Program-made: the position numbers and the translations under genes
The notes under the pieces: model-generated
What the model saw: only the letters and a program-made list of their open reading frames with translations
Told to the model about the DNA's origin: nothing
The model's database searches: none
NCBI RefSeq assembly: GCF_010882175.1
Contig: NZ_WKLH01000007.1
Coordinates: 1-64,000, forward strand
Source: Mangrovibacterium lignilyticum
GTDB lineage: Bacteria > Bacteroidota > Bacteroidia > Bacteroidales > Prolixibacteraceae
Length of the DNA stretch: 64,000 bases
Direction: 5' to 3'
Shown here: piece by piece, positions 19,274-46,840 of the stretch
Layout of the letters: each line of letters begins with the position of its first letter
Numbering within the stretch: the stretch's first letter is position 1

Positions 19274-19291
19274 TTTTAAGGTATTACTACA

Positions 19292-20896: not shown

Positions 20897-20958
20897 ATTA
20901 GGACCGTTGTTAAACAATTATAAGATGCTTTTATGATATATAGTTTTAACAAATCAAA

Positions 20959-22239: not shown

Positions 22240-22251
22240 TTGTGATAAATA

Positions 22252-22275: not shown

Positions 22276-22424
22276 ATTCAGAATTACTGTTAAGTTCTAA
22301 GAATTATAAAAGTCAAAATTTGACAATTCAATAACGAATTTTGTCAACGGCCCAGATCCAATCGATTTTGCTCCATTATCCTCAGCCTAGGGCTTGTCGT
22401 GGGCTGTTTAATCTTACTACAGAA

Positions 22425-27116: not shown

Positions 27117-27245
27117 AAAAATCATAGGGAGAATAGTGGTTTTTATTTTTTGAACGTCTAACCATTAGTTGACCGCAGAAAATATCAATCAAATTTCTGT
27201 TTAGTCAGCTGATTTTAATAGTTTTATTAAGATCTATTGAAATAA

Positions 27246-28449: not shown

Positions 28450-31400
28450 ATGAAAAAAACGATTTATCTCGCCAATGAGGTGGGAAATGCGTGTAATGCG
28501 CGAAAAATTTTATTGGTAATGAAACTAACAGCCTTCTTCTTATTGGTTGCGATTATTCAAGTTATGGGGCTTGAATCGTACTCCCAAGAAACAAAGTTGA
28601 CTCTAAACTATCAGAGCACTTCTTTGAAACAAGTTTTGTCAAAAATTGAGAACGAAACAAATTTCTATTTTCTGTATAGTTCCGAAGTCATAGATGTAGA
28701 GCGAAAGGTTGATGTAGACGTCGATAATGAGAATATTACAGAAGTTCTCGATATGATTCTGAAAAGCAATGGAATTCATTATGAGATAAAAGGTCGGCAG
28801 ATTCTTCTATCAGAAGAAGGCAGTAAGAACAATTTTTGGGAAAGTTCCCAACAGACTGTTACGGTCAAGGGAAATGTAACCGATTCTTCGGGAGCTCCTT
28901 TACCCGGAGTTACTGTTTTGGTAAAAGGGACAACCCAAGGTGTTATTACGGATTTTGATGGAAATTATACTCTTAACAATGTGGCTTCCAATGCAACTTT
29001 GGTGTTTTCTTTCGTCGGTATGGAATCCAAAGAAGTTCAGGTAAATGGATTAAATTCAATCAATGTAACTTTGGATCAAAGTACGATTGGATTGGAGGAA
29101 GTTGTTGCTGTTGGGTACGGTATTCAGAAGAAGAGTGATGTGATCAGTTCCGTTACTTCGGTAAAAGCTGACGAACTAGTGAAAACCACGTCTTCTGACC
29201 TTGGTGAGATGCTAAGGGGTAAAGCAGCTGGCGTTCTCATTTCTACTGCCGATGCAAGTCCTGGTAGCTCTTCTACTATTCAGATCAGGGGAAAAAGATC
29301 CATCAATGGCGGTAATGAGCCCTTGGTAATTGTAGATGGTGTTCAAGTTTCCAGTTTAAATGACGTCAATCCCAATGATATCGCTTCCATGGAGGTACTA
29401 AAGGATGCAGCAGCACAGGCAATCTATGGAGCACGTGCTTCAAATGGGGTTATTTTGATCACTACTCAAAGAGGGAAAGAGGGGAAAATTCAAATTAATT
29501 TCTCTGGTTACTCTGGAGTGCAGACTCTTCAAAAACATTTTGATACATATAGTGGAGATGAATTCATAGAATATAAGCGTGAAGCTTTTAGAGCCTCTAA
29601 TGGGGGAGTGTTTTTACCGGATGATCAAGTATTTTCTGCTTCAGAACTGGAGACTATTGCCTCGCGTGACTATATCAATTGGGAAGATAAGATTATTAAC
29701 AGTAATGCGAATATTACGAATGGAGATATTAGTGTTTCTGCGGGTACAGAAAAAACTAAGATTTACAGCAGTTTTAATTTCTTTAGACAAGAGGGGCTCA
29801 TAAAGGGGTCGGACTATAATCGAGGTCAAATTCGTTTGAATTTAGACCAAACCATTAGTGATTGGTTAAAAGTAGGAATAAACACGTCTTACCAGATTTC
29901 AAATAAAGACAACCCAGGTGTTGCGTATACAGATGACGCAGGATCAATGTTGTTGAGATCTATTACGACCTCACCTTTAGGTCAAGTTTATAATGAAGAT
30001 GGTAGCTTAAAAATACATCCAAGTGACGTTCAGGATAGTTTTAACCCATTGCTGGATTTAAATGAAATTATCAATACGACTGAAGATAAAAGAGATATTA
30101 TCAATGTGTTTTTTGATCTGAAGCCGTTCAAAGGATTTAATTACAGGTTCAATGCCAGTAGAACTACTATAAATAGAAAAAGCATCATCTACAACTCATC
30201 AAAATCATTGTTAGGTATTCAAGCAGGTGGCCAAGGTTTGGGTTCAATCACCTATGATGAGAATAAATCTTGGCAGTTGGAGAACATCTTTAATTATGAT
30301 TTTGATTTTAGTAATGAAGATCACAGTTTAAATCTAACGTTTGTTCAAAGTGTGTTAAATACACAAACATACTATTTAACAAATGAAGCAAAGAATTTTC
30401 CCAATGATAATTTAGGAATTTATGCCATATCAGCTGCAGGAACAAATCAAACAACGATAGGAGGTTTGGAAAGAAATTTGGTTTCTTTTGTAGGCCGAGC
30501 TCAATATAATTTTGCAGGTAAATACTATTTGTCGGCATCAATGCGTGCTGATGGCTCCAGTGTTTTTGGCGCGAATAACAAATGGGGGTATTTCCCTGCC
30601 GTAGGAGCTGGATGGAACGTTCATCACGAAGATTTCATGACTAATAGTGGTATCGATATCCTAAAATTAAGGGCTAGTTATGGTAGTGTCGGTAACGAGG
30701 GGATAGAGCCTTATCAAAGCTTAAGTACTTTGGTGCCCAGAGATTACATTATCAATGGCGCTAAAACAGGTGGCCTTTTGCCAGGTGCCAGCCTTCCTAA
30801 TCCTGATCTTAAATGGGAAACTTCAACAACGCTAAACTTAGCGCTTGATTATGGTATTCTTGATAACAGATTACATGGAACCGTTGAATTTTACAATACA
30901 AGAACCAAGGACTTGCTTGTAGATCGTGCACTTGAAGCCGTCACAGGATACGCTGTAAGCAAAACCAATGTGGGAGAGATCGAAAATCAGGGTATTGAAG
31001 CCTCATTCAATGCAGATATTATCAAAAAGAAAGATTTTACGTTAAGTGCAGGGTTTGTTATTAATAGCAATCGAAACAAGATAATCAGCTTATATGGCGA
31101 GGATAAAGATGGTGATGGAAAAGAAGATGATGACGTTGCCAATCGCTGGTTTATTGGGAAGCCAATTGATGCATATTACGACTATAAGATGATTGGTATT
31201 TTTAGTTCTCAAGAACAAATAGATAATTCCAACACACCTAATGCCGAATTGGGGGATATCCAGGTTTGGGACCGAGATCCTAGTGACGGTGACCTAAATG
31301 CTGACGACCGTGTAATTACAAGTCAAACTCCTGATTGGTATGGTACTTTTACGTTGAATATGGAATACAAGAATATTGATTTCTCGATGAGTCTATATAC

Positions 31401-31803
31401 AGTTCAAGGTGTCACCAAGTTTAATCCGTTTTTAGTCGATTATCAGACGGGTGGTAACCCAAGAGGGATTTTGTCGGGAGTTAAGGTAAATTATTGGACA
31501 CCAGAGAATCCAACCGGTGATCGCCCCAGACCATTGGAAGCAAGAGGTAGACGATTTATGGATTTGGGTAACGTGACAGCAGGTTTGGAGGACGCTTCGT
31601 TTTTTAGACTGCAAAACGTAACTCTAGGTTATACGTTGCCAAAGAAAATTATTGATAAATGGAGCTTGAGTAAATTTAGAGTTTACGTCACAGGACAGAA
31701 TTTGATAACGGTGACAGACTTTCAATCGTTTAGTCCCGAAAACAATGCCTATTCCTATCCTGAGTCTATTTCAGTAACTGCAGGTATTCAAGTTGGATTT
31801 TAG
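28450..31803 (+). CDS. SusC-like TonB-dependent receptor with STN domain (unit 2)
   Basis: An outer-membrane importer. The long N-terminus is followed by a hydrophobic signal (~24-46, ending SYSQE). STN domain at ~50-118 (TSLKQVLSKIENETNFYFLY), carboxypeptidase-like domain at ~135-210 (GAPLPGVTVLVKGTTQGVITD), plug at ~220-335 (PLVIVDGVQVSSLNDVNP, MEVLKDAAAQAIYG), then a 1117-residue barrel protein ending VGF. The extended start is typical of STN-SusC proteins; Met24 is the alternative. SusD follows after 23 bases. Confidence 0.96.
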   Translation: MKKTIYLANEVGNACNARKILLVMKLTAFFLLVAIIQVMGLESYSQETKLTLNYQSTSLKQVLSKIENETNFYFLYSSEVIDVERKVDVDVDNENITEVLDMILKSNGIHYEIKGRQILLSEEGSKNNFWESSQQTVTVKGNVTDSSGAPLPGVTVLVKGTTQGVITDFDGNYTLNNVASNATLVFSFVGMESKEVQVNGLNSINVTLDQSTIGLEEVVAVGYGIQKKSDVISSVTSVKADELVKTTSSDLGEMLRGKAAGVLISTADASPGSSSTIQIRGKRSINGGNEPLVIVDGVQVSSLNDVNPNDIASMEVLKDAAAQAIYGARASNGVILITTQRGKEGKIQINFSGYSGVQTLQKHFDTYSGDEFIEYKREAFRASNGGVFLPDDQVFSASELETIASRDYINWEDKIINSNANITNGDISVSAGTEKTKIYSSFNFFRQEGLIKGSDYNRGQIRLNLDQTISDWLKVGINTSYQISNKDNPGVAYTDDAGSMLLRSITTSPLGQVYNEDGSLKIHPSDVQDSFNPLLDLNEIINTTEDKRDIINVFFDLKPFKGFNYRFNASRTTINRKSIIYNSSKSLLGIQAGGQGLGSITYDENKSWQLENIFNYDFDFSNEDHSLNLTFVQSVLNTQTYYLTNEAKNFPNDNLGIYAISAAGTNQTTIGGLERNLVSFVGRAQYNFAGKYYLSASMRADGSSVFGANNKWGYFPAVGAGWNVHHEDFMTNSGIDILKLRASYGSVGNEGIEPYQSLSTLVPRDYIINGAKTGGLLPGASLPNPDLKWETSTTLNLALDYGILDNRLHGTVEFYNTRTKDLLVDRALEAVTGYAVSKTNVGEIENQGIEASFNADIIKKKDFTLSAGFVINSNRNKIISLYGEDKDGDGKEDDDVANRWFIGKPIDAYYDYKMIGIFSSQEQIDNSNTPNAELGDIQVWDRDPSDGDLNADDRVITSQTPDWYGTFTLNMEYKNIDFSMSLYTVQGVTKFNPFLVDYQTGGNPRGILSGVKVNYWTPENPTGDRPRPLEARGRRFMDLGNVTAGLEDASFFRLQNVTLGYTLPKKIIDKWSLSKFRVYVTGQNLITVTDFQSFSPENNAYSYPESISVTAGIQVGF

Positions 31804-31826: not shown

Positions 31827-33380
31827 ATGAAATTAATTAATAAATTAAATAAATTCAAGAATATCTATATTCTGTTATTGTCGTTCTTGTTAATAACCTC
31901 ATGTGATAATCTATTAGATGAAACACCTATTGATGTTATTGATGCAAATTTTTTATACACCACTGAGACAGGTTTAGAGTCTGGAGTAACTGGACTTTAT
32001 AATTTAATGAGAGAGTTGTATTACCCTGCTGGAACAGATGCACCAATACAGGCAAGTGCGTTTTTCAGAATTGCCACTGACTTAGGCGTTGCGCGAATTG
32101 CGTCTAGTTGGGCTTATGATCCTAATCAATATAACCCTGCAGCCATCGGACCAACAGGAAAGTGGGACCAATTATATTTGATAATTGAACGGTGTAATGC
32201 TCTCATTGAAAATGCTCCAAATATTGATATGGACCAAACTAAAAAAGATGTACTTGTAGCGCAGGTAAGAGCAATGCGTGGCGAAGTATACATGGAACTA
32301 TACACTATTTATCACAACATCGTACTTAAGACGGAACCAAATGAGGACGTGGAATATGCGGCGGCAGAACCTGCCGACATTTGGGCTTTGGTAAACAGTG
32401 ACCTTGATTTTGCAATATCAAAACTTGATTGGGTCGTCGAACAAGGACGTTATGGGCAAGGTGTTGCAAGACACCTAAGAGGTAACGCTGCTATGTGGCA
32501 AGAAGATTGGCAGGAAGCCGCAGATCAGTATGATGCTATCGTTGAAAATGGACCATATCATCTAGTAGGGTTGGATGAGGTATTTTCTGGCGACAGAAAT
32601 AATGCAGAATCATTATATACTTATCAATTCAGCCAGGAATTGGCAAGTGGAAATGCATCTGCAGGAGGTGGCGCAACTGCTTACGCAAGCTTTTTCAACA
32701 ATCGCTATTACGAAGCAGGAAGTGGCGAAATGGTTCAAGCAGTTGAATACGGAGGAAACGCTTTTGGATGGGCATTTCCTAATGATTATTTGCAGTCCTT
32801 GTATGATCAGACAAACGATCAGCGATATGTTACTTATTACTATGATCAAAGTGCATATGTTGTGAATAATCCTGATCACGCCAATTTTGGGCAACCATTC
32901 GTTTCAACTGAAGATAACTACAGACGATACCATTGGAGTCTTAAAAAGTTTCATGATGAAAACAAGCCGGCTACATCTACTGATAGTTATCAAAACTATA
33001 TTCATTATCGGTTTGCCGAGACACTACTTTTCGGTGCAGAAGCACATTGGCGACTAGGTGGTGACACAGACGCCACAGCTCTGGAATACATTAATATGGT
33101 CAGAAGAAGAGCTTTCGGAGACAATGATCATGACTACACTTCCATAACTTTAAACACTTATCTTGACGAACATGCGCGTGAGATGGCTTTTGAGCATTCT
33201 CGTTGGTTTGTGCTAAAGAGACTTGGGCTGCTGGCTGAAAGAGTGACTATGCACTTTAAGGTTGGTTCAAATTCCACTAATGTAGCAGGTAGAGATATGC
33301 AGCCTTACATGGTTAATTACCCTATTCCTCAATCAGAAATCGAATTAATGGGTACATTCCCGCAGAACGATGGTTATTAA
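31827..33380 (+). CDS. SusD-like surface glycan-binding lipoprotein (unit 2)
   Basis: RagB/SusD partner of the preceding SusC. Lipobox Cys26 (LLITSC) is followed by DNLLDETPIDV. TPR-like helices (VRAMRGEVYMELYTIYHN, HLRGNAAMWQEDW) and the C-terminal RagB region (AREMAFEHSRWFVLKRLG, MVNYPIPQSEI). 517 residues, full length. Weakly similar to the unit 1 SusD, so it probably captures a different ligand. Confidence 0.96.
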   Translation: MKLINKLNKFKNIYILLLSFLLITSCDNLLDETPIDVIDANFLYTTETGLESGVTGLYNLMRELYYPAGTDAPIQASAFFRIATDLGVARIASSWAYDPNQYNPAAIGPTGKWDQLYLIIERCNALIENAPNIDMDQTKKDVLVAQVRAMRGEVYMELYTIYHNIVLKTEPNEDVEYAAAEPADIWALVNSDLDFAISKLDWVVEQGRYGQGVARHLRGNAAMWQEDWQEAADQYDAIVENGPYHLVGLDEVFSGDRNNAESLYTYQFSQELASGNASAGGGATAYASFFNNRYYEAGSGEMVQAVEYGGNAFGWAFPNDYLQSLYDQTNDQRYVTYYYDQSAYVVNNPDHANFGQPFVSTEDNYRRYHWSLKKFHDENKPATSTDSYQNYIHYRFAETLLFGAEAHWRLGGDTDATALEYINMVRRRAFGDNDHDYTSITLNTYLDEHAREMAFEHSRWFVLKRLGLLAERVTMHFKVGSNSTNVAGRDMQPYMVNYPIPQSEIELMGTFPQNDGY

Positions 33381-33565: not shown

Positions 33566-35734
33566 ATGCACCCTGAAAAATATTCATCAATCTTTACCTT
33601 TTTTCTACTTGTATTTCTATATACATCAGTTGGCGCTTACGCTACAACTCCGAAAGCAATAGATCGTCATGCATTGGTGACCAGGCATAACATCAGGTGG
33701 CCTTGGGAAGAGCGCGGCCAGATTCCTATGGGGAATGGCGAGTTTTGCATCGGTGTGGATGGAACAGGTCTTCAGACCTTTGGTGGTAACACGATGTCGC
33801 ATTGGGGCTGGCACTCATTTCCTCTTCCGGAGGGTGTAACTCCTGATAAGGTTCCAGAAACTGGATCTTTCATTAATGTGAAAAATGGAGAGCGCTATAT
33901 CGGAGCAGATACTGTTCCGTCAGGTAAAGAAGCTATCAGAAATTGGATGTACGATAATCCCCATATCTTTAACTTAGGACGTTTGCGTTTCGTTAGATAT
34001 GATGGTGCTGAGTTAACTGTGGAAGATATTACTAGTAATGGGAGTAGAAATCTTGATTTGTGGACGGGAACCCATAGTTCAAGGTTTGCAGTTAGTGGAG
34101 ATTGGATAAATAAAGGTGCCTGGGTAAACCCTGATGTGATGGGGGGCAGCGGGCAGCAGGTGATGGTTACCACATATGTTCACCCATATAATGATCAGGT
34201 ATCTGTAAAAGTTGAGTCTGACCTGATAGCCAGGGGGGTGATTAAAGTGGCATTGGATTTTCCATATCCAACATTAAACAATAAAACTGATTGGGTAGGT
34301 GATTTCAAAAGAACTGAAAATAACTTAACAACCCAAGCCCAAACCAGTAAGGTCAGAGCTGACTTTAAAAGAGAGGTAGATGATTTTACGTATTACGTAG
34401 CGCTGAACTATACTGAAGGTGCTAAGGTAACTCCTTCAACTTATGATGGTGGTAAAGTTTGGTATCTTGAAGGAAACGGATTATCTACTGTGGAATTTAG
34501 CACCACTTATTCTCCAACTCCCATTGGTAATGAAGTCCCTGACTTTGAAGCCACGAAACAGGCTAGTACAACACACTGGGAAAACTTTTGGATGAGCGGT
34601 GGAGCAATCGATCTTTCAGAAAGCTCCGATCGAAGGTGGTATGAACTGGAACGTCGTATTGTTCTTTCGCAATGGTTAACTGCTGTGCAAACAGCCGGAA
34701 GCTGGCCTTCTTCAGAGAGCGGACTGATGAATATAGACCCCTGGCGCGGACAGTTTCACTATGAAATTATATGGTTTCACCAGGCACATTATGGATTTTG
34801 GGGCCGTTGGGAGCTAACTGATGAAGCAGTACAATCCTATCAGAGGTTTATACCGACAGCACGCAAACGGGCACAACAATTCGGTCTTAAGGGATTAGAA
34901 TGGCCTAAATCGGGAAGCCCGTCTGGACGTAGCGCTCCGTGGGAGGGAAATCAGTCGTTATTGTGGAAACAGCCTCAACCCCTTCATTTTGCCGAACTGG
35001 ATTATAAAATACACCCTAAGAAAGAAACACTAGATAAGTGGGCTGAAGTCGTATCCGGGACCGTAGAATATATGGTAGACTTTTTAACACTTGATGAAGA
35101 AACAGGAATATATCATATTCAGCTAAATATGGGCCCAGGGGAGTGGGGAGAGTCTACCGACAATCCGCAGGTGCTCGCCTTTTGGCATTGGGGAATTGAA
35201 CAGGGGCAAACTTGGCGTGAACGCATGGGGCTTGGGCGTGAACCGCACTGGGACGAAGTACTGCAACACCTTGCGAAGTTTCCAATGAAAGACGGCATTT
35301 ATGTCGATAGTCAAGGACAGCCATTACGTCTTACTGGTATTCTTGGTTTAATGCCTCCATCAGAGGCGATCACACTCGAAACAGCCACTCGTACTTATGC
35401 AAAAATGAAAGAAATGTCAAATCAAATGACTGGTTCTGTATTTGGTAGCAGGAGTATGGGGTGGGGAGTTGCCATGGGGGCGCTTGCACAAGCCAAAATG
35501 GGGGATGCCGAAGGCGCTGTTGAATCCTTGCTTGGAGGTTTGGGGACAGCTTTCGATGTTGCAGGGATCAACCGGGGATTGGGAGGTGCTTATTTGCCTA
35601 CCAATGGCGCATTACTTTACGCCGTAGCAGTGATGGCTGCAGGCTGGGATGGTGCACCGAACAGAAATGCTCCTGGATTCCCGGATGATGGTTCGTGGGT
35701 TGTTCGGTGGGAGGGGCTTCAACCAGCCCCTTAA
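33566..35734 (+). CDS. Six-hairpin glycosidase-like protein, paralog A
   Basis: Probable secreted glycoside hydrolase of uncertain family. I chose ATG 33566 because the open frame starts at TTG 33533. The signal peptide ends VGAYA. The N-terminal beta-sandwich (~25-310) opens with RHALVTRHNIRW and GQIPMGNGEFC. The C-terminal half looks like an (alpha/alpha)6 barrel of the GH65/GH95 type, with WRGQFHYEIIWFHQAHYG (Trp393-Glu400), APWEGNQ (Glu460) and a closing GWDGAPNRNAPGFPDDGSW. It is clearly homologous to the protein at 41285-43405 but lacks that protein's WEHPN and WGWDFPW motifs, so it may differ in substrate or activity. Conserved Glu400 and Glu460 are catalytic candidates only. Confidence 0.75.
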   Translation: MHPEKYSSIFTFFLLVFLYTSVGAYATTPKAIDRHALVTRHNIRWPWEERGQIPMGNGEFCIGVDGTGLQTFGGNTMSHWGWHSFPLPEGVTPDKVPETGSFINVKNGERYIGADTVPSGKEAIRNWMYDNPHIFNLGRLRFVRYDGAELTVEDITSNGSRNLDLWTGTHSSRFAVSGDWINKGAWVNPDVMGGSGQQVMVTTYVHPYNDQVSVKVESDLIARGVIKVALDFPYPTLNNKTDWVGDFKRTENNLTTQAQTSKVRADFKREVDDFTYYVALNYTEGAKVTPSTYDGGKVWYLEGNGLSTVEFSTTYSPTPIGNEVPDFEATKQASTTHWENFWMSGGAIDLSESSDRRWYELERRIVLSQWLTAVQTAGSWPSSESGLMNIDPWRGQFHYEIIWFHQAHYGFWGRWELTDEAVQSYQRFIPTARKRAQQFGLKGLEWPKSGSPSGRSAPWEGNQSLLWKQPQPLHFAELDYKIHPKKETLDKWAEVVSGTVEYMVDFLTLDEETGIYHIQLNMGPGEWGESTDNPQVLAFWHWGIEQGQTWRERMGLGREPHWDEVLQHLAKFPMKDGIYVDSQGQPLRLTGILGLMPPSEAITLETATRTYAKMKEMSNQMTGSVFGSRSMGWGVAMGALAQAKMGDAEGAVESLLGGLGTAFDVAGINRGLGGAYLPTNGALLYAVAVMAAGWDGAPNRNAPGFPDDGSWVVRWEGLQPAP

Positions 35735-36014
35735 TAAAAGAAGTAAATAAGAAGCAAGCTGTATCTCGACGAAATTAACCGTAATCATTGAAATTTATTC
35801 AATTGAAAACGGATAATAATCCAATTCTGAATAGTGGATGATGTACACTAAACCGTCTAGAGTATGTAATTGGGCAAAATCGTCAGTTTTTGACAGAACT
35901 GATTCATCTCTCTTCATATTCAGGTAATTCAGCCAATTTCGACGGATAAAGCAGAGAAGATAGGATCTTTAGTGAAAGGAAACATCGAGCAAAGTAAACT
36001 ACTAACCAATAAAA

Positions 36015-39000
36015 ATGAGAAAACTATTTATACTAATCGCGTGCACGTTTTATTTTAACAGTGGGTGGACACAAGACGGTGGCTTTTTAAATAACCTGTC
36101 AAAATATATTGAAAATACGGAGGTATTTGAGCTTGGGCAGGAAGAAGGAAGAGCATTTCACATACCGGAACAAAACATATTACTTAACGGTAGCTGGAAG
36201 TTCTATTATAGTGATGTAACTGAAGGCATCCCTTCCGATTTTTTCGAAATGGATTTTGATGATTCTGAATGGGATTTAATTGAGGTGCCTTCTAATTGGG
36301 AAATGAAGGGGTATGGAGATAGAATGTTCCGAAATATTAGTTTAGGATACCAATATGCGAAATCGGAAGAAGCAAAAAAAGAAGCCGGCGAGTTTGCTGT
36401 TGTTCCCCCGGAGGTTCCTGATGAATACAATCCTACGGGAGCATACCGAAAGTCATTTGATTTGCCGACAGCTTGGCAAGGCCAGGAAGTCTTTTTGCAT
36501 TTTGAAAAGATCGCGTCGGCATCTTTTGTGTGGGTAAACGGTCAGCAGGTTGGGTATAATGAAGGTGCACATGAACCGTCGGAATATAATATCACACCTT
36601 ACTTGCATGCGGGGAAGAATACCATTGCTGTTTTTGTAATGAAATTTTCTGACGGATACTATTTGGAAGGGCAGGATTATTGGCGTTTGGCTGGTATTTT
36701 TGATGATGTATGGGTTTACTCATCACCCAAAGTTCGTCTTTTCGACTGGCAGGTAATCACCGATTTTGACGAAAGCTATACTGATTCGAAGCTATCGCTT
36801 AATATCGATATCAAGAACTACGGAGCGGGTCTAAAAGATTATAAACTGAATGCGACTCTCGAGAGAAATGGACGGAAGATTGCCAGCTTTGGAAGTTCAA
36901 AGTTCAGTGTTAAAAAAGGTAAGCAAACTATAAGTCTTTCAGAAATAATCAAACAACCTGAAAAATGGACTTCTGAAACTCCAAACCTCTATGGTTTGAG
37001 GATGGAGTTACTTAATAATGAAGGCAAAGTCGTCGACCAAATTCAAACTAAAATTGGCTTTCAAAAGACGAAAATCATTGGGAATGTTTTTTATCTCAAT
37101 GGCGTACCGGTGAAACTGAATGGTACGAATACACACATGCAGCATCCGGAAATGGGGCATGTTGTAGATGAAGCTACCATCCGTAAAGACATGGAGCTTT
37201 TGAAGCAGTTCAATTTCAACCTCGTACGTATATCCCACTACCCACCCGTTAATAGGTATTTGGAATTGGCTGACGAATACGGATTGTTTATAGTTGATGA
37301 GGTGGGGAATGAGTGTCACGCCACACAGTATGTGTCGGATATGCCTGAGTACACCGAAATGTATAGAGACCGGACTCGGAAGGCAGTGCTTCGGGATCGA
37401 AACCATCCAAGTATTTTGTTTTGGAGCGCTGGTAATGAGGCAGGTGAGGGTGAAAATATCACAGAGGTCGTTAAGGAAGGTAAGCGGCTCGATCCTACGC
37501 GTTACTGGATGTATGGCGGCAATGATATGGTTCATCCTGCCGAAGACATAATCGGTCCCCGTTATCCGTCTCCGTTACAGGAAGAAGTTAATCTGGGACT
37601 TGACACAACTGATAGCCGGCCATCGTTCATGGACGAGTATCTATCCGTGACCGGTAATGGAGGAGGAGCGCTTGATGAGTACTGGCGGGTTATTTATAGG
37701 CACCCAAGAATTGTGGGTGGTGCTATATGGGATTTTGTGAGCAACGGTTTAACCGACTCGGTTCGTATTTTGTCGGATAAATCTCCTTTTGAAACACCAA
37801 CCTACGCTATGGGCAATTCAAAATTGGTAAACGGAGTTAACGGAAAGTGTCTTGATCTCAACGGACATGATGAGTGGGTTGAAGTTTATCGAAGTAATAA
37901 CCTTGAAATATCGGGAGATCAGTTGTCAATCATGATGGATGTATTTCCCCGCTACCTGAATAGTAGCGCTGGCTCCTTTTTGACCAAAGGAAGTAACCAG
38001 TTCGGGCTGATACAAAACGGGAAAGATTCACTGGATTTCTACATTTTCACCAAGGAAAAACAAACTTTAAGTGTACCTCTGCCTGAAATGTGGGAGAACC
38101 ATTGGCATAACATTTTAGCGACTTATGATGGTGCTCAGATGAAACTTTTTATCGATGGTGTTGAAGTTGGATCGGCGAAAGTGAGTGGGAAAATCAAAAA
38201 TTTGCCCTTTCCTGTGAATATTGGTCGAAACGCTGAAATTCACACGCAGGATACGAAAGACTATGTCTGCGATTCGAAGATTGACAATGTCAGGTTGTTT
38301 GCAAAAGCCATATCACCTTCCAGCAACCTCAATCCTTCGGATGCCGTTTTATGGTTGGATTTTGAAAAAGAAACTAATGGAGGTGCTTTTTATAGTAATG
38401 GAATGGGGGCCAGAACTTACGGTAGTATTTGGCCAGACCGTAAACCTCAGCCAGAGTTATGGCAAATGAAAAAGTCAGCACAGCCACTCTCTTTTAGGCT
38501 ATTGAGTACTGAAAAAGGTGTACTGGAAGTTTGGAACCGGAGCGATTTTACAAATGCTTCCCACTGGGAATCGACCTGGACACTGACAGAAGATGATAAG
38601 GTGCTTCAGCAAGGTGTTTTGGAATTGAATGTCGAGCCGGGAAATCGTTCTAAAGTGATGGTCAACTATAAAAAGCCTGAGATTATTCGTGGTAAAGAGT
38701 ATCGGCTCAATATCAGTTCCTCGTTAAAGCAGGATGAAATATGGGCAAAAAAAGGCCATGAAATTTCATGGGACCAGTTTGAGCTAACTGGCTGGAACGA
38801 TCCCTTACCCCCCAGGGGTCCCACCAATCTGGCGGCAACATTATCAACCAAAGAAGGGAATCATATCATTACAGGAGAAGGATTTTCATACACTTTCGAC
38901 GAAAATTCTGGCGAACTTAAATCCATGTTGGTCGATGGAGATGAAATGATTAAGGCACCTATCAAACTCAGCATATGGCGTGCTCCAGTGAATAATCAGA

Positions 39001-39791
39001 ATGATCGGTGGGCTGGATACAGCTTCAGGCAGCCTAACTGGAAACCGGAGTATGGACGAACCATGGCCACAGATTTATATTCAACCGGCGTAGATGAACT
39101 TCATTTTATTCCACTTGAAGTCAGAGCGGATGAGGCTGAAGGAATGGTGTCCATTTATGTGCGTGAAGTTGCTCTTACTAGGCAAGATCAGAATACCGTA
39201 TCCCTTGACTACCTTATTGAAGGAGGAGCTGCCGGTGCAATCGGTGGATTTGAAAGTATCTATGAATACAAGGTCTATGGAGATGGTTTCATCGAAATTA
39301 ATCACCGAGTGATGCCACAAGGCCAGATGCCCCAGTTGCTACCTCGAATCGGCCTTAGTTTGATGCTTGATAATGAGTATGATCAGGTCGAATGGTATGG
39401 CCGGGGACCTCAGGAAAATTATCCTGATCGCAAAAGTGGCTACAGACTTGGAATCTATAATTCAACAGTAGATAAAATGTACGAGCCCTATTTAGTTCCT
39501 CAGGATTACGGTCTGAGAATGGACAACCGATATTTGAAAATGACGAATAGCGAGGGTAGAGGCCTTGTGTTTTCCATGGACCAGCATTTCAATTTCAACG
39601 CTCATGCGTACACGACGGAAAACATAACCAAGGCGCTTTATACATTTCAACTGGAGAAGGCCGATGGAATCACGCTTAATTTGGATTATAAAACTACCGG
39701 TGTTGGCGATACCTCCCAGCCGGTGTTGAATTCATACCGGGTGTATCCGCAAGAGTATTCGAGAAAAATTACGATAAAACCAATTAAATAG
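36015..39791 (+). CDS. GH2 beta-galactosidase-like enzyme with inserted LamG domain
   Basis: A large LacZ-type retaining glycosidase (1258 aa). Signal peptide to ~19 (SGWTQ). GH2 sugar-binding domain at ~40-225, Ig-like domain at ~230-350, TIM barrel at ~350-595 with acid/base Glu475 (SAGNEAG) and nucleophile Glu541 (FMDEYLSVTGN). A concanavalin/LamG domain is inserted at ~600-770 (LDLNGHDEWVEV, WHNILATYDGAQMKLFIDG). A second GH2 beta domain and a Bgal_small_N domain at ~940-1255 (WYGRGPQENYPDRKSGYRLG) follow. Substrate is probably a beta-galactoside. A ~280-base spacer precedes it and may hold a promoter. GH43 follows after 57 bases. Confidence 0.94.
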   Translation: MRKLFILIACTFYFNSGWTQDGGFLNNLSKYIENTEVFELGQEEGRAFHIPEQNILLNGSWKFYYSDVTEGIPSDFFEMDFDDSEWDLIEVPSNWEMKGYGDRMFRNISLGYQYAKSEEAKKEAGEFAVVPPEVPDEYNPTGAYRKSFDLPTAWQGQEVFLHFEKIASASFVWVNGQQVGYNEGAHEPSEYNITPYLHAGKNTIAVFVMKFSDGYYLEGQDYWRLAGIFDDVWVYSSPKVRLFDWQVITDFDESYTDSKLSLNIDIKNYGAGLKDYKLNATLERNGRKIASFGSSKFSVKKGKQTISLSEIIKQPEKWTSETPNLYGLRMELLNNEGKVVDQIQTKIGFQKTKIIGNVFYLNGVPVKLNGTNTHMQHPEMGHVVDEATIRKDMELLKQFNFNLVRISHYPPVNRYLELADEYGLFIVDEVGNECHATQYVSDMPEYTEMYRDRTRKAVLRDRNHPSILFWSAGNEAGEGENITEVVKEGKRLDPTRYWMYGGNDMVHPAEDIIGPRYPSPLQEEVNLGLDTTDSRPSFMDEYLSVTGNGGGALDEYWRVIYRHPRIVGGAIWDFVSNGLTDSVRILSDKSPFETPTYAMGNSKLVNGVNGKCLDLNGHDEWVEVYRSNNLEISGDQLSIMMDVFPRYLNSSAGSFLTKGSNQFGLIQNGKDSLDFYIFTKEKQTLSVPLPEMWENHWHNILATYDGAQMKLFIDGVEVGSAKVSGKIKNLPFPVNIGRNAEIHTQDTKDYVCDSKIDNVRLFAKAISPSSNLNPSDAVLWLDFEKETNGGAFYSNGMGARTYGSIWPDRKPQPELWQMKKSAQPLSFRLLSTEKGVLEVWNRSDFTNASHWESTWTLTEDDKVLQQGVLELNVEPGNRSKVMVNYKKPEIIRGKEYRLNISSSLKQDEIWAKKGHEISWDQFELTGWNDPLPPRGPTNLAATLSTKEGNHIITGEGFSYTFDENSGELKSMLVDGDEMIKAPIKLSIWRAPVNNQNDRWAGYSFRQPNWKPEYGRTMATDLYSTGVDELHFIPLEVRADEAEGMVSIYVREVALTRQDQNTVSLDYLIEGGAAGAIGGFESIYEYKVYGDGFIEINHRVMPQGQMPQLLPRIGLSLMLDNEYDQVEWYGRGPQENYPDRKSGYRLGIYNSTVDKMYEPYLVPQDYGLRMDNRYLKMTNSEGRGLVFSMDQHFNFNAHAYTTENITKALYTFQLEKADGITLNLDYKTTGVGDTSQPVLNSYRVYPQEYSRKITIKPIK

Positions 39792-39848
39792 TCACTTCGA
39801 CATTTTCAGTTGTGACAGAATAATAAACCCAGATAAGGTCAATTTCAA

Positions 39849-41270
39849 ATGAGATTAAGCACGAAAAAAGATGTAGTTATGGATACTGGAAGTACAATAG
39901 CAAAAGAAGGGGCGTATTCCAGGTTCCACTCGGCTATGACTTACTATCCATTACTACTTCTTTTTTTAACTATTTCGAATTCAACATTCTGCCAAAATCC
40001 GATTGTTCCGGCTGGTGTATATCTGGCCGATCCTTCAGCTCATGTTTGGCACGATGGTAAATTATACGTTTACGGGTCATTGGATGAAAGTACGGAGTAT
40101 TACTGTTCTTATAAATATCATGTACTCTCTACTTCAGACTTGGTACACTGGGATATAACAGAGAATGTTTTTGCATCAAGAGGTGATAATGACAAGGTCC
40201 CTTATTCAGATAAGGAACTTTATGCTCCCGACTGCCAGTTTAAGAATGGAATGTATTATCTGTACTATTGCCAGCCTGACCGGAAAGCAGCAGAAGGGGT
40301 TGCTACAAGTAAATTTCCAATAGGACCGTTTACCTCAGGGGCATCAATTGCACTCGGAGGAATAGAAGAGATCGATCCGGCAGTGTTCATTGACGATGAT
40401 GGACAGGCCTATTATATCTGGGGCCAATTCGATGCGAAAATTGCCAGATTGAAGCCTAATATGACGGAGATCGATTCCTTATCCATTGTTCCCGAATTAG
40501 CTACTGAGAAGGAACACTTTTTTCACGAAGGCGCTTTTATGTTTAAAAGAAACGGAATCTATTATCTTGTTTATTCCGATATAAGCCGGGGAAACCAACC
40601 AACCTGTATTGGTTATTCTACAAGTGATTCTCCTTGGGGGCCTTTTAAATATGGTGGAGTTATAGTTGATAATGACAATTGTGATCCGTCAACATGGAAT
40701 AACCATGGTTCTGTCGTAAAATTTAAAGGTCAATGGTATGTCTTCTATCATCGATCCACTCACAACAGTAGAATGATGCGAAAAGCATGTGTTGAGCCCA
40801 TCACTTTTAATATGGATGGTAGCATAAATGAAGTGGAGATGACTTCTCAGGGGGCTGGACCTCCATTCAATGCGCTGGAGAAAATTGAATCAGAATGCGC
40901 CTGTTTGCTTTTGGGGAATTCGAGGATTGAATTATTTGAAACGATGAACGAAAAACTCGGAGGCATTCAAAATGGAGACAAGGTGGCCTACAAGTATATT
41001 GACTTTAAAGATGGAGCAGATCAAATTCAGTTTCGGGTAAAAGCTCTTCAAAATGGGGGAAAGATAAGTGTGAGACTTGATCAACCTTGGGGAGCTGAAG
41101 TTGGAGTCTTGAATATTCGCGGAGACGAGGCCGGCGATTGGAACACAGTGACTTCAAAAATAAAAAAGGTTGGGGGTGTTCATGCTGTCTGGTTGGCCTT
41201 TTCCGGTGATAAGAACGAATTGTTTGAATTAGATTGGTTTGAATTCGCCAATAATTCTGAAATTGAATAG
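39849..41270 (+). CDS. GH43 glycosidase with C-terminal CBM6-like domain
   Basis: A five-bladed beta-propeller inverting enzyme, arabinofuranosidase or xylosidase type. The catalytic triad is visible: general base Asp61 (YLADPSAH), pKa modulator Asp176 (EEIDPAVFID) and general acid Glu227 (FFHEGAFMF). Residues ~350-473 form a beta-sandwich of CBM6 type (KYIDFKDGADQIQFRV, VWLAFSGDKNELFELDWFEF). The annotated ATG adds 29 residues before the obvious signal peptide; Met30 (39936) gives MTYYPLLLLFLTISNSTFCQ and may be the true start. Fourteen bases separate it from the next gene. Confidence 0.92.
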   Translation: MRLSTKKDVVMDTGSTIAKEGAYSRFHSAMTYYPLLLLFLTISNSTFCQNPIVPAGVYLADPSAHVWHDGKLYVYGSLDESTEYYCSYKYHVLSTSDLVHWDITENVFASRGDNDKVPYSDKELYAPDCQFKNGMYYLYYCQPDRKAAEGVATSKFPIGPFTSGASIALGGIEEIDPAVFIDDDGQAYYIWGQFDAKIARLKPNMTEIDSLSIVPELATEKEHFFHEGAFMFKRNGIYYLVYSDISRGNQPTCIGYSTSDSPWGPFKYGGVIVDNDNCDPSTWNNHGSVVKFKGQWYVFYHRSTHNSRMMRKACVEPITFNMDGSINEVEMTSQGAGPPFNALEKIESECACLLLGNSRIELFETMNEKLGGIQNGDKVAYKYIDFKDGADQIQFRVKALQNGGKISVRLDQPWGAEVGVLNIRGDEAGDWNTVTSKIKKVGGVHAVWLAFSGDKNELFELDWFEFANNSEIE

Positions 41271-41284
41271 TAAATAAAAATGAT

Positions 41285-43405
41285 ATGAACCGAAAAAATA
41301 GTTCTATAATAACGATCGTAATTCTCTGCGTAGTTGCAGTTTTTTGTACTCAGTGTAATGCTGACAAGCCCGCAAGGTCAATTGATCGACATGCATTGGT
41401 AACCAGGCATAATATTGAGTGGAATGATATGGAAGGACAGATTCCACTTGGTAATGGTGAGTTTTGCTTTAATGTTGACGGAACCGGGTTACAGACATTT
41501 GGAGGAAATACTATGGCACACTGGGCTTGGCATTCGTTTCCTCTTCCGGAAGGTGTAACTCAGGATCAGATTCCGGCTACTGGTACTTTTCAGAAAGGAC
41601 GCAATACGGGACCTGATATTTTCCCCGAAGGAACTTCTGCTATTCGTCAGTACATGTTTGACAATCCCCATAGCTTTAATCTTGGGCGAATCCGTTTGGT
41701 CAAATCTGGTGGCCAATCAGTAGCTCCGGAACAAATTCAGAATTTATCCCGGACGATGGATTTATGGACAGGGATTCAAACTTCTTCTTTTTCGGTGGAA
41801 GGCAAACCGGTGCAGGTAGAAACGTGCGTAGATCCCTCTACGGATATGGTTTCAGTACGGATTGAATCACCACTTTTCGAAAATGGAGAGTTGGGTATTG
41901 CAATCGATTTTCCTTATCCAGCGATTCAACGGAATAAACCTTGGGTGGGCAATTTTAAACGAACCGAGGGCAACTCCACAATTCGTATGAATGATCAGGT
42001 AGATGATCAACGTGCTGATTTCCTTAGGGAGATAGATGATGTGGTTTATTATACGTCCTTAAACTGGAGTGACGGTGGAATGCTTAAATCACCTGAGGAA
42101 ATGGCCCCAAATACCTGGCGTTTGGAGGTTAAAGGCATATCCTCATTTCAGTTTACCTGCGCTTTTTCTTCTAATCCCTTGAAATCGAGTCTACCTGACG
42201 TTCATGAATCAGAACAAGCAAATAAAGAACATTGGCCTCTCTTTTGGAAAAAAGGGGGAGCAATAGACTTGTCCGAAAGTAAAGATGAACGCTGGATGGA
42301 ATTGGAGCGTCGCATTGTACTTTCACAATATTTGACGGCGGTACAGTCTGCCGGAAGTCATCCGCCTGCCGAAGTTGGATTGATGGGAATCGATTCTTGG
42401 CGGGGACAATTTCACATGGAAATGATTTGGTGGCATTTGGCGCATTATGCCTTATGGGATCGTTGGGAAATGGCCGATAGTGCTTTGACAATCTATAAGC
42501 GTTTCATCCCTACGGCACGTGCACTGGCACAGCAGCTCGGATACAAGGGTTTGCAGTGGCAAAAATCAGCGAGTCCGGAAGGAAGAACAGCTCCGTGGGA
42601 GGGGAATCAGGTTCTAATTTGGAAACAGCCTCACCCGATCTTTTTTGCAGAGTTAGAATACCGACTTCATCCCACGCGCGAAACACTTGAAAAGTGGGCT
42701 GAGATTATTGAGGGAACTGCGGAATACATGGCAGACTATCCTGTACGTGACGATCAAACTGGAACCTATCATTTGGATCCTGTTATGCCGCCGAGTGAAC
42801 AGGGAATAACAAAAGATGACATTTTTGATTTGGCCTATTGGAAATGGGGCTTGCAACAAGCTCAACTTTGGCGGGAACGTATGGGATCTGAGAGAAACTC
42901 TCATTGGGATGAAGTCATACAAAATCTTGCAGAACTACCGGTGAAGGACGGGCTTTATCTGCATTCACCGGAGTGGGAAGATACCTATACCGAACGTAAC
43001 TGGGAACACCCCAACACGGTTGGTGTTTGGGGGATGTTACCTCCTCAAAAAGATATGGATTTTGATACAGCACATCGCAGCCTCCTAAAAGTCTGGGAGA
43101 CTTGGCAGTGGAAACGTTGCTGGGGCTGGGATTTTCCATGGACAGCGATGGCTGCTGCACGCCTTGGCGAACCCCAAATGGCTGTTGACGCTCTGCTGTT
43201 AGATGCTGGTACAAAAAACCACTATGATGAACGGGGTGTGTGCACTGGTGGCCCTTGTCCGTATTTGCCTGGTAATGGTGGGCTGTTGTACGCCGTTGCA
43301 TTGATGACTGCAGGCTGGGATGGCGCTCCAGATAAGAATGCTCCCGGATTTCCGGACGACGGATCGTGGGTGGTAAAATGGGAAGGGCTCAAACCTGCAC
43401 CATAA
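41285..43405 (+). CDS. Six-hairpin glycosidase-like protein, paralog B (lipoprotein)
   Basis: Homologous over its whole length to the protein at 33566-35734. The signal has a lipobox candidate Cys24 (FCTQC). N-terminal beta-sandwich with RHALVTRHNIEW and GQIPLGNGEFC, then an (alpha/alpha)6-like half with WRGQFHMEMIWWHLAHYA (Trp372-Glu379), APWEGNQ (Glu439), WEHPNTVGVWGMLPP and WGWDFPWTAMAAARLG. It shares the closing motif GWDGAPDKNAPGFPDDGSW. It retains aromatic motifs missing in paralog A and is likely the canonical form. I cannot name a CAZy family with certainty; GH65/GH95-like fold is the best structural guess. Tightly spaced within the enzyme operon. Confidence 0.78.
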   Translation: MNRKNSSIITIVILCVVAVFCTQCNADKPARSIDRHALVTRHNIEWNDMEGQIPLGNGEFCFNVDGTGLQTFGGNTMAHWAWHSFPLPEGVTQDQIPATGTFQKGRNTGPDIFPEGTSAIRQYMFDNPHSFNLGRIRLVKSGGQSVAPEQIQNLSRTMDLWTGIQTSSFSVEGKPVQVETCVDPSTDMVSVRIESPLFENGELGIAIDFPYPAIQRNKPWVGNFKRTEGNSTIRMNDQVDDQRADFLREIDDVVYYTSLNWSDGGMLKSPEEMAPNTWRLEVKGISSFQFTCAFSSNPLKSSLPDVHESEQANKEHWPLFWKKGGAIDLSESKDERWMELERRIVLSQYLTAVQSAGSHPPAEVGLMGIDSWRGQFHMEMIWWHLAHYALWDRWEMADSALTIYKRFIPTARALAQQLGYKGLQWQKSASPEGRTAPWEGNQVLIWKQPHPIFFAELEYRLHPTRETLEKWAEIIEGTAEYMADYPVRDDQTGTYHLDPVMPPSEQGITKDDIFDLAYWKWGLQQAQLWRERMGSERNSHWDEVIQNLAELPVKDGLYLHSPEWEDTYTERNWEHPNTVGVWGMLPPQKDMDFDTAHRSLLKVWETWQWKRCWGWDFPWTAMAAARLGEPQMAVDALLLDAGTKNHYDERGVCTGGPCPYLPGNGGLLYAVALMTAGWDGAPDKNAPGFPDDGSWVVKWEGLKPAP

Positions 43406-43423
43406 AATTTAAAACCTACAATT

Positions 43424-45205
43424 ATGAAAAACTTAAAGATAAAAGACATTCGAATAATCGTATTGGCGATCCTTTGTTTATGCGTATCGGTTGTAAAGGC
43501 TCAACTTTCACCGGTTTTTGATAACAAGGATCTTCAACGAGTGCGTACATCGGATTTAAGCCAGGCTTTTATTGTTCCACAACGAATTGTCTGGACTTCG
43601 GATAGTACCGGAAAATTCGTACAAAACACCGAAATGCTATTGAGCCCTTCTACCGGGCAATCGGATTTAAGCAGGGGGGATGTATTTACCATCAAGAATG
43701 ACGGAGTAATGCAACATGGAGTTGTTCTTGATTTTGGAAGAGAAATTCAGGGTGGAATTGAAATTGTTACTTCACGTGGAAATCCAGGTCCTCCGGTTAA
43801 AGTGCGCATACGATTGGGAGAGTCGGTGGGCGAGACCATGACCGATGTAGGAGTAAATGGCGCCACAAACGATCATGCGATGCGCGATTTTGAAGTTGCC
43901 CTGACGAATATGGGGCGCCTGGAAATCGGTGAATCCGGTTTTCGCTTTGTCAGAATTGATTTGGTGGGAGCTGATGCACAAATACGGATCAAGGAAATTA
44001 GCGCTATTTTCAGGTATCGGGATATTCCATACTTGGGATCATTTACCAGTAATGACGAGCGGTTAAACAACATATGGCTTACTGGCGCTTATACGACTCA
44101 TCTGAATATGCAGGAATACCTATGGGACGGAATAAAACGTGACCGCCTGGTGTGGGTGGGAGATATGCACCCCGAGGTAATGACCATCAATTCAGTTTTT
44201 GGATATAATGATGTGGTGCCCAAAACGCTGAATTTTGCAAAAGATCAATATCCACTTCCCAACTGGATGAACGGCATAAGTTCATACTCCATGTGGTGGA
44301 TAATGATACAACGGGATTGGTATAATTACCAAGGTGATCTGAGCTACCTCAAGGAACAGAAAGAATACTTGGTTGGTTTGCTCCACCAGCTTGCAAAATA
44401 TATTAATAAAGACGGGAAGGAAATATTGGACGGAGAACGATTTTTGGACTGGCCTACTAGTGAGAATAAAGAAGCAACTGATGCTGGTTACCAAGCCATG
44501 ATGGTGATGGCCTTTAGCGCTGGAGCCGAGTTGTGTAAGATTCTGGATGAAACCGCAACCGTCTCACTTTGTGAGCAATCAATAGAGAAATTGAAGAAAT
44601 ACGTACCGGAAATGGCAGGCACCAAGCAAGATGCTGCATTGCTTGCTATATCTGGTTTGATTTCCCCTCAAGTGGCAAATGAAAAAGCTCTGAGCCTGGA
44701 TGGGGTCCATAAAATGTCAACTTTCTATGGTTATTATATGCTCACTGCTCGTGCAATGGCTGGAGACTACCAGGGAGCAATTGACAATATCCGGGAGTAC
44801 TGGGGAGCTATGCTTGATTTGGGAGCCACTACTTTTTGGGAAGATTTTGACATAGACTGGATGACAAACGCAGCCCGGATTGATGAATTGATCCCAGAAG
44901 GGAAAATTGATGTGCATGCTAATTATGGCGATTACTGTTATGTCGGATATCGTCACAGTCTATGTCATGGCTGGGCATCCGGGCCTACTGCTTGGTTGAC
45001 ACAATATGTGCTGGGTGTCAATGTTGTTGAGCCTGGTTGTAAGGTAATAAAACTAGCTCCTCATTTGGGCGATCTAAAGTGGGTCAAAGGTACTTTTCCC
45101 ACACCCTATGGAATCTTGATCATCGAACATCAGAAAGAGTCTGATGGATCAGTCCGGACAACTTATGAGAAACCTGAGGAAATCAAGGTCATCGTTGAAA
45201 ATTAA
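43424..45205 (+). CDS. Compact GH78-like alpha-L-rhamnosidase
   Basis: Predicted to remove terminal alpha-L-rhamnose. Signal peptide ends VVKAQ. A beta-sandwich at ~45-200 (GVVLDFGREIQGGIEI, RFVRIDLVG) precedes the (alpha/alpha)6 catalytic domain. WDGIKRDRLVWVGDMHPE contains Asp240, Asp247 and Glu251, at the position of the GH78 general-acid loop. FWEDFDIDW contains Glu473, at the usual general-base position. The C-terminal domain has SGPTAWLTQYVLGV and LKWVKGTFPTPYG. At 593 residues it is shorter than most GH78 enzymes, lacking the extra N-terminal domains. Confidence 0.85.
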   Translation: MKNLKIKDIRIIVLAILCLCVSVVKAQLSPVFDNKDLQRVRTSDLSQAFIVPQRIVWTSDSTGKFVQNTEMLLSPSTGQSDLSRGDVFTIKNDGVMQHGVVLDFGREIQGGIEIVTSRGNPGPPVKVRIRLGESVGETMTDVGVNGATNDHAMRDFEVALTNMGRLEIGESGFRFVRIDLVGADAQIRIKEISAIFRYRDIPYLGSFTSNDERLNNIWLTGAYTTHLNMQEYLWDGIKRDRLVWVGDMHPEVMTINSVFGYNDVVPKTLNFAKDQYPLPNWMNGISSYSMWWIMIQRDWYNYQGDLSYLKEQKEYLVGLLHQLAKYINKDGKEILDGERFLDWPTSENKEATDAGYQAMMVMAFSAGAELCKILDETATVSLCEQSIEKLKKYVPEMAGTKQDAALLAISGLISPQVANEKALSLDGVHKMSTFYGYYMLTARAMAGDYQGAIDNIREYWGAMLDLGATTFWEDFDIDWMTNAARIDELIPEGKIDVHANYGDYCYVGYRHSLCHGWASGPTAWLTQYVLGVNVVEPGCKVIKLAPHLGDLKWVKGTFPTPYGILIIEHQKESDGSVRTTYEKPEEIKVIVEN

Positions 45206-45227
45206 ATTCATTAAAAAATACCCCCTG

Positions 45228-46094
45228 ATGAACAAAACAATACAAATCTTTTCGTTGCTCTTCATTAACCTAATCGCAGTGGTTTGTCAAGCACAAACTG
45301 TTATTCCACTCTATAATGGTGAGATCCCACCAGGATCTGAAATATTGACAAGGGGAGAAACTGCCCGCCGTGATGAGAATGGAGATATCATTACAATACG
45401 GAATGTTTCCATGCCCACTTTAACAGTCGTCCGACCTGAAGAAGATAAAAAGAATGGGACTGCCCTTATAATTTGCCCCGGTGGCGGCTTTCAGGGACTG
45501 GCATTTCAACACGAAGGTGCCGAGACGGCTAAATGGTGTATTGAAAAAGGGATTACTGCATTTATTTTAAAATATCGATTAATGCCCTTTCCATATCCGG
45601 AATTAGACAGAGCAGAGCAATCACAACGAGATTCAATCTTTATCCCATTTGTTCGTCTTGCAGCGGCAGATGGACTTGAGGCGATTAAGTACGTTAGAAG
45701 CCACGCATCGGAATTCGGGATCGATCCAGCAAAAATAGGAATTGTTGGCTATTCGGCTGGAGGGACTGTTACGGGTTCTGTTGCACGGACTTATACGCCG
45801 GAATCCCGCCCCGATTTTGTTGTGCCTGTGTATGCTTATTGCGGTGCCATTCTGGGAGATCGTGTTCCTGAAGATGCTCCTCCGATGTTTCTTGCCTGGG
45901 CAACAGACGATCCGATTGCAAAAGGAAATCCTGGTCTCTATGAGCAATGGAGAGATACGGGAAAATCTGTTGAAATGCATTGCTTTTATTCGGGAGGACA
46001 CGGTTTTTCAGTCGTCAAACAAAACAAACCCTCAGATCAATGGCCTACCCTTTTCGAGGAATGGATGATTAATCAAGGGTTTCTGAACAAATAA
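45228..46094 (+). CDS. Secreted alpha/beta-hydrolase, acetyl-esterase-like
   Basis: Probable deacylase of sugar hydroxyls (CE20/xylan-acetyl-esterase-like by motif). I chose ATG 45228 because it gives a clean signal peptide (LIAVVCQAQ); the upstream in-frame ATG lies inside the rhamnosidase gene. Oxyanion region CPGGGFQGLAF. Nucleophile Ser176 in GYSAGG, acid in ATDDPIA, His in YSGGHGF. 288 residues. Homologous to the esterase at 50257-51159, with the same DDPIA and GGHGF blocks. Confidence 0.88.
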   Translation: MNKTIQIFSLLFINLIAVVCQAQTVIPLYNGEIPPGSEILTRGETARRDENGDIITIRNVSMPTLTVVRPEEDKKNGTALIICPGGGFQGLAFQHEGAETAKWCIEKGITAFILKYRLMPFPYPELDRAEQSQRDSIFIPFVRLAAADGLEAIKYVRSHASEFGIDPAKIGIVGYSAGGTVTGSVARTYTPESRPDFVVPVYAYCGAILGDRVPEDAPPMFLAWATDDPIAKGNPGLYEQWRDTGKSVEMHCFYSGGHGFSVVKQNKPSDQWPTLFEEWMINQGFLNK

Positions 46095-46129: not shown

Positions 46130-46840
46130 ATGAAAGAACTCAATGTTTTAAACAATAGAAATGTTTTTGCACTCAGTACCGCTCGATTTATGCCGTTTTT
46201 GTTCTGTTCCTTGTTTTTGTTTGTTTCTTCCTCCGTGTTCTCTCAAGCGGTGATGTCAAAGAAGACATGGATTATCACTGATTTGCTGAAAGAACGAGAA
46301 GATGTCACCGTTTTGGGCAATCCTGAAATAATTGATTCTCCTTATGGCTATGCTGTACAATTTGATGGTGTGGATGATGGCTTCCTTTTGGAGGAGATGC
46401 CTTTGAAAGATCTCTCAGAGTTTACCATAGAAATGCTAATCCGGTTTGATCGTGGTGGCACTGAAGAGCAACGCTATTTTCATACAGGAACGGTTAGGCA
46501 AGATCGTGTATTAATGGAAATGCGGTCTGACGATGATTCATGGTATCTGGATGGGATGTTTGAATCCAAGACAAAATGGGTTGTCTTGATGGATCAGGAA
46601 CTGGAGCATCCATTGGATAAGTGGTATCATATCGCATTTACGGTGAAGGATGGTGAGCAGACTACTTTTGTTAATAGGAAGAAAGAACTTGAAGGCATTG
46701 TTGAGTTTTCACCAATCGTAGAAGGGAGTACGTCGATTGGTGTTCGTCAGAACAAAATATCATGGTTTAAAGGAGCAATTTATTGCATTCGAATTACCGA
46801 CAGCGTTATAGACCCATGCGAGTTTATGGGCTTTAAGTAG
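46130..46840 (+). CDS. Secreted LamG/concanavalin-like domain protein
   Basis: A 236-residue exported protein. Signal peptide to ~38 (SSSVFSQ), possibly starting at Met21. The rest is a single jelly-roll domain: VQFDGVDDGFLLEE, SEFTIEMLIRF, DKWYHIAFTVKDG, GAIYCIRITD. Such domains bind glycans or act as lyases/hydrolases. I see no catalytic residues that I can assign, so a binding protein is the simplest reading. Encoded between esterase genes in the enzyme run. Confidence 0.8.
   Translation: MKELNVLNNRNVFALSTARFMPFLFCSLFLFVSSSVFSQAVMSKKTWIITDLLKEREDVTVLGNPEIIDSPYGYAVQFDGVDDGFLLEEMPLKDLSEFTIEMLIRFDRGGTEEQRYFHTGTVRQDRVLMEMRSDDDSWYLDGMFESKTKWVVLMDQELEHPLDKWYHIAFTVKDGEQTTFVNRKKELEGIVEFSPIVEGSTSIGVRQNKISWFKGAIYCIRITDSVIDPCEFMGFK

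Follow-up and report, generated by a model that had tools for sequence, protein, structure and literature searches.

An uncharacterised family of six-hairpin proteins in Mangrovibacterium lignilyticum, with a candidate inverting exo-glycosidase and a paralog that may bind glycan

The stretch of Mangrovibacterium lignilyticum DNA analysed here (contig NZ_WKLH01000007.1, positions 1 to 64,000, hereafter the window), from a genome of 5.63 Mb in 16 contigs (G000), carries two related six-hairpin proteins, paralog A and paralog B, within a run of genes for glycan uptake and breakdown (Table 1). A preliminary description made from the sequence alone had called them a paralogous pair, and our analysis bears this out: both open reading frames are real, and 369 of 734 aligned positions are identical (50%, 727 bits), far above chance. 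The motifs it had listed are also as described, with RHALVTRHNI, GNGEFC, WRGQFH, APWEGNQ and GFPDDGSWVV common to A and B, and with WEHPN and WGWDFPW missing from A and kept by B. An upstream TTG, taken as an alternative start, would lengthen A to 733 residues. Judged by eye, the leader of A looks Sec-like and contains no cysteine, and that of B is followed by Cys24, with an atypical Gln23 before it.

Table 1. Paralogs A and B and the genes around them in the window
Feature	Coordinates	Strand	Remarks
Paralog A	33566..35734	+	722 residues; secreted six-hairpin protein; keeps the acid Glu526 and His398/Glu400; without the candidate base Asp (Gly there) and the His loop
Paralog B	41285..43405	+	706 residues; putative lipoprotein and, by prediction, an inverting glycosidase; Glu505 as acid and Asp616 as candidate base, with His575 and His377
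Second SusC/SusD pair, 426-residue protein without family, GH3, GH39-like enzyme	15854-26344		
Sigma factor and FecR	26526-28325		directly upstream of SusC
SusC-like TonB-dependent outer-membrane receptor	28450..31803	+	Pfam
SusD-like glycan-binding protein	31827..33380	+	Pfam
GH2 LacZ-type beta-galactosidase	36015..39791	+	Laminin_G_3 insert, residues 632-769
GH43 with CBM6	39849..41270	+	best-scoring solved relatives are xylosidases/arabinofuranosidases
GH78-like (alpha-L-rhamnosidase-type) six-hairpin protein	43424..45205	+	
Alpha/beta-hydrolase esterase	45144..46094	+	closest to the NCBIfam models PaeX and AxeA1 (both sub-threshold); uncertain start codon
Laminin_G_3 domain protein	46130..46840	+	
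Carboxylesterase (COesterase)	46883..48583	+	
Carboxylesterase (COesterase)	48593..50188	+	
Alpha/beta-hydrolase esterase	50257..51159	+	
GH3	51176..53431	+	

No Pfam or NCBIfam model passed its cut-off for A or B, in agreement with the earlier statement that neither can be placed in a characterised glycoside hydrolase (GH) family. Weak hits were seen among the 51 rows of alignment A1, two of which repeat A and B; 47 of 59 candidate homologs of at least 600 residues entered this alignment and a further one, A3. With cut-offs compared for B, and hits in other A1 rows given by expect value (E) or by count, PF14498 (the GH65-type N-terminal domain) recurred in 20 of 51 rows and stayed below cut-off for B; a kojibiose hydrolase model hit 7 of 51 rows weakly, scored 17.5 bits vs. 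a cut-off of 800 for B and gave no hit for A; PF03632 hit one of 51 rows (E 2.5e-4); and PF22124, the GH95 catalytic model, hit neither A nor B and one of 51 rows (E 4.7e-4). A profile search of the PDB with A1 retrieved the GH65 alpha-1,2-glucosidase FjGH65A (7fe3, E 5.4e-8) and a kojibiose phosphorylase (3wiq, E 6.9e-7), and then weaker GH65 enzymes. The AlphaFold model of B (mean predicted local distance difference test score, pLDDT, 90.9; predicted template modelling score 0.91) was the one searched by Foldseek, where GH95-type entries lead by E-value and the highest template modelling (TM) score among the 50 matches listed belongs to 7fe3 (0.71/0.76), sixth by E-value. The model of A folded with a pLDDT of 85.9, falling below 50 at residues 1-3, 390-392, 620-625, 627-629, 659-661 and 672-678. 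The beta-sandwich plus (alpha/alpha)6 barrel that had been proposed is thus seen in both models and, for B, in matches to known structures, and the suggested AlphaFold comparison, made with B, gave matches in GH65 and GH95, plus GH139. Given the profile match to GH65, the structural matches of B to all three families and the lack of any model over its cut-off, we regard this family as a remote relative of GH65, GH95 and GH139 and, on the tests applied, as belonging to none of them. It is uncharacterised and widespread in Bacteroidota: with B as query (E up to 1e-5) it was matched in 77 of the 140 genomes from the taxonomic family of the window, and with A as query (E up to 1e-20) in 27 of 395 genomes drawn from the whole phylum, the two sets sharing at least the genome of the window. 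A literature search found no paper naming this glycosidase family, which is weak evidence of novelty as subscription papers and preprints lay mostly outside the search.

To locate the active site, we relied on FjGH65A, whose published acid is Glu472 and whose base is Glu616, with Pro575/Ala576 standing where phosphorylases have their two phosphate-binding serines (PMC8626586). In the profile alignment to 7fe3, 12 of the 13 published FjGH65A residues tried fall on the right letter at a constant offset of 3, the 13th, Trp391, being in an insert. The acid Glu472 aligns with Glu505 of B and Glu526 of A, and Asp344, which binds sugar at subsite -1, with Glu379 of B; Pro575/Ala576 align with Trp613/Gly614 of B, three and two residues before Asp616, and the base Glu616 falls on the non-conserved Val652 of B and Ile668 of A, in a loop where the alignment is weak. 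At the phosphate-serine positions of phosphorylases, B has W-G and A has M-G, and the corresponding His position is Leu in both. We then followed these residues through 142 open reading frames of at least 600 residues, reduced to 114 by removal of near-identical ones (3 A-type and 111 others, hereafter non-A). Shorter pieces lie outside this set, including both halves of a family copy in genome G086 (L014/L111) that is split by one in-frame TAG.

Glu505, His377, Glu379 and His384 are present in 114 of 114 family proteins, whereas Asp616 (in WGWD) and His575 are found in 111 of 111 non-A but 0 of 3 A-type proteins. At 14 Asp/Glu/His positions, 97% or more of the non-A proteins agree. All three A retain 11 of these, including the acid Glu526, His398, Glu400 and His405, and depart at the other three, where His450 is replaced by Gln, His575 is deleted and Asp616 is replaced by Gly. 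As these are the only ones of the 14 to change, Asp616 is our best candidate for the base, with His377 as a possible go-between and A as a putative natural loss variant. A wider count gave a similar contrast: of the 84 positions that 97% or more of the non-A proteins conserve, the three A change 13, 14 and 13, vs. five or fewer in 109 of 111 non-A and 6 and 13 in the other two (ten of the 13, in L091, are gaps), with changes in A at 380, 382, 383, 450, 452, 479, 526, 575, 607, 613, 616, 618, 622 and 624. Compared with B, A has also lost a 10-residue stretch beside the site. The two glutamate pairs singled out for mutation in the preliminary description fared differently. Glu439 of B (Glu460 of A) is Glu in just 8 of 114 family members and is therefore unlikely to be catalytic; Glu379 of B (Glu400 of A) is indeed invariant, but it aligns with the sugar-binding Asp344 of GH65, which is neither acid nor base. 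The residues we propose instead, Glu505 of B and Glu526 of A as predicted acid and Asp616 of B (Gly in A) as candidate base, had not been named.

A-type proteins were found in three genomes, those of the window, G104 (same genus) and Draconibacterium mangrovi, across the 140-genome and 395-genome searches and an additional search of 8 genomes reached via loci with A; the genome search of Aestuariibaculum sp. M13 showed much of the cluster including B and no A-type copy. In a tree of 36 of the 114 family proteins, the three A are monophyletic (support 100/100) and their stem measures 0.97 substitutions per site; the B group comes out as their sister, weakly supported (81/74). The A orthologs are 76-83% identical and have an intact frame in 3 of 3 genomes from two genera, and the ratio of non-synonymous to synonymous divergence (dN/dS) within A is 0.06-0.09 by NG86 and 0.05 by YN00, values that are approximate since synonymous divergence (dS) is 1.5-1.9, near saturation, and YN00 was obtained for one of three pairs. 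The three A thus have a single origin and a long stem, followed by purifying selection. When the window's genome is compared with G104, A has a dS of 1.47 (NG86) and ten other cluster genes have 0.19-0.91, a gap suggesting allele exchange, by which one of the strains acquired its A from another source.

From this pattern we surmise, with a probability of roughly 0.55, that B is an inverting exo-glycosidase with Glu505 as acid and Asp616 as base, and that A is a conserved paralog that has lost hydrolysis and probably binds glycan. Both would belong to one family of exported exo-glycosidases, in which B would trim a terminal sugar off the oligosaccharides that pass through the SusC/SusD system. 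The leaving group would be protonated by Glu505, and Asp616 would activate water, perhaps through the invariant His377; Asp616 would stand where a barrel helix begins, in the element that binds phosphate in GH65 phosphorylases. A, now without Asp616 and the His575 loop but still with the acid and a good part of the pocket, would have been conserved since and would bind the glycan that B acts on, or one related to it, and leave it intact. Between the two options left by the preliminary description, the loss of Asp616 and His575 in 3 of 3 A favours one catalytic and one binding form over two steps on related linkages. The latter option, in which both proteins are active and A uses another residue or an amide as base in a reshaped pocket, seems to us doubtful, yet it is in keeping with the retention of Glu526, His398, Glu400 and His405 in all three A and with purifying selection. 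It also draws on Glu445 of A, which all 3 A-type proteins have and none of the 111 non-A; this residue sits three places ahead of the one aligned with the subsite +1 residue Glu392 of FjGH65A, and through it A may have changed its reaction or specificity and not be inert. In addition, an Asn base has been proposed for GH95 and GH139 (PMC12282258), so that a missing carboxylate is no proof of a dead enzyme. These last two points weigh against a non-hydrolytic A, and the small number of genomes with A, the near saturation of dS and a single-sequence PDB search with B, which returned two chance-level chains (E 0.5 and 0.64), also count against our reading. On the other side, within A residues 340-722 there are 15 Asp/Glu columns common to the three A and present in fewer than half of non-A, of which Glu445 alone is wholly missing from the non-A proteins, and its place in the alignment is by the +1 side rather than the base side; the 10-residue stretch lost beside the site likewise speaks against two active enzymes.

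Loss of a water-activating base is also what separates GH65 phosphorylases from hydrolases, and A might be a glycoside phosphorylase with phosphate as nucleophile, given that the acid is kept and that the lost residue lies on the element holding phosphate in GH65 phosphorylases. We consider this improbable and rejected it because A lacks those phosphate-site residues that were mapped, the two serine positions being Met/Val-Gly and the His position Leu; A also has an export-type leader. Glycoside phosphorylases are usually cytoplasmic. That A is merely a decaying duplicate without function, as the loss of conserved active-site residues and the long stem branch might imply, is very improbable to us, being disfavoured by the dN/dS of 0.05-0.09, by the intact and 76-83% identical orthologs in three genomes of two genera and by the retention of A inside the cluster.

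The genes from SusC (28450) to GH3 (53431) lie on one strand with short gaps, an arrangement consistent with an operon; a scan for promoters and terminators showed no excess, with 31 promoter-like sites vs. a shuffle mean of 26.0 and 10 terminator-like sites vs. 11.2. No lyase was found among the genes scanned. The Laminin_G_3 domain of the GH2 protein sits between barrel and domain 4, and the GH39-like enzyme weakly matches a xylosidase. Two proteins of 744 (5780-8014) and 426 residues (20959-22239) adjoin genes for carbohydrate-active enzymes and have no Pfam match over cut-off and none at 1e-5 in NCBIfam; the 744-residue protein has no PDB sequence match at 0.01.

A third copy of the family in the same genome (C10:477523-479610; locus L106, C10:467000-486900, also L154) is located inside a cluster of rhamnogalacturonan-I type, where its neighbours are a polysaccharide lyase of family PL11, two GDSL esterases, GH43, a DUF4450 protein, GH2, GH106, PL22, a GH88/GH105-type hydrolase, GH95 and a hybrid regulator. 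The DUF4450 protein (L106:3833-7561) has a weak six-hairpin rhamnosidase match, and our literature search found no paper naming DUF4450. With the proteins of this cluster as queries, relatives of GH106 were found near family genes in 20 of 83 loci, DUF4450 in 14, the GH105-type hydrolase in 9 and PL11 in 4, as counted by hand over loci that include the query's own, are often short and are not independent. By published accounts, the rhamnogalacturonan-I cluster of B. thetaiotaomicron has lyases, an esterase and hydrolases acting on unsaturated residues next to GH106, GH2 and GH28 (PMC8002723), and GH106, GH105, GH78 and PL11 serve as signs of pectin clusters (PMC10807430). We did not transfer a rhamnogalacturonan substrate to A and B, since in six A/B loci (L036, L037, L100-L103) no open reading frame best-matched any of ten rhamnogalacturonan-cluster queries; the A/B cluster does hold a GH78-like enzyme. 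Copies in bins labelled Clostridia or Oscillospiraceae (L039, L040, L048) have best segments 52-62% identical to B, above most Bacteroidota copies listed, reflecting either transfer or misbinning. Tentatively, we speculate on a broader scenario in which the base shifted to Asp616, perhaps together with His377, on the element that forms the phosphate site in GH65, the duplicate became, in one lineage, a conserved and non-hydrolytic glycan receptor by losing the base and the facing loop, and the unclassified family is common in rumen and gut Bacteroidota, often in clusters of rhamnogalacturonan-I type.

These data point to a glycosidase family unnamed by the curated models searched, with a short list of candidate catalytic residues, and the A/B pair offers a natural experiment in the route by which a glycosidase might turn into a binding protein. 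If the activity of B were found, the copies beside rhamnogalacturonan genes would also gain a likely function.

Among known systems, JM81_RS13825 of Maribacter sp. MAR_2009_72, a six-hairpin "uncharacterized GH" in polysaccharide utilization locus 7, resembles the pair, going by its published description (PMC11036162), in having the six-hairpin fold without a class and in being encoded near GH105, GH43_18 and GH78 in one cluster. With GH65, represented by FjGH65A (7fe3) and kojibiose phosphorylase (3wiq), the family shares the fold, the general-acid position and the subsite -1 strand bearing Glu379 of B and Asp344 of FjGH65A; it differs in that identity to FjGH65A is 16% in the Foldseek alignment, the GH65 base Glu616 is not conserved, the sugar-binding pair K538/Q539 has no aligned residue in B and family-model hits are sub-threshold. 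GH95 alpha-L-fucosidases/galactosidases share with B the fold (TM to query 0.65-0.68), the EM-W strand and, at the N-terminus, a weak match to PF14498. Four GH95 proteins from the window's genome were compared with the family in a single profile alignment, which was read by eye: their strand NIN-T-EM aligns with His377-Met-Glu379-Met, so placed that the second Asn of NIN, the catalytic Asn, is His377 in B and the Asp of IDGN is Pro662, with B having Asp616 instead. By the spacings given in PMC12282258, this Asn and Asp would be N423 and D766 of AfcA. The GH139 2-O-methyl-fucosidase BT0984, marked by a Gln411-Asn412 pair, Asp723 and the acid Glu561, also shares the fold (TM to query 0.59-0.62, 12-13% identity), and its activating Asp is placed elsewhere than in GH95. 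A GH139 member lacking the acid has been suggested to be a binding protein (PMC12282258), whereas in A it is the candidate base that is lost, not the acid.

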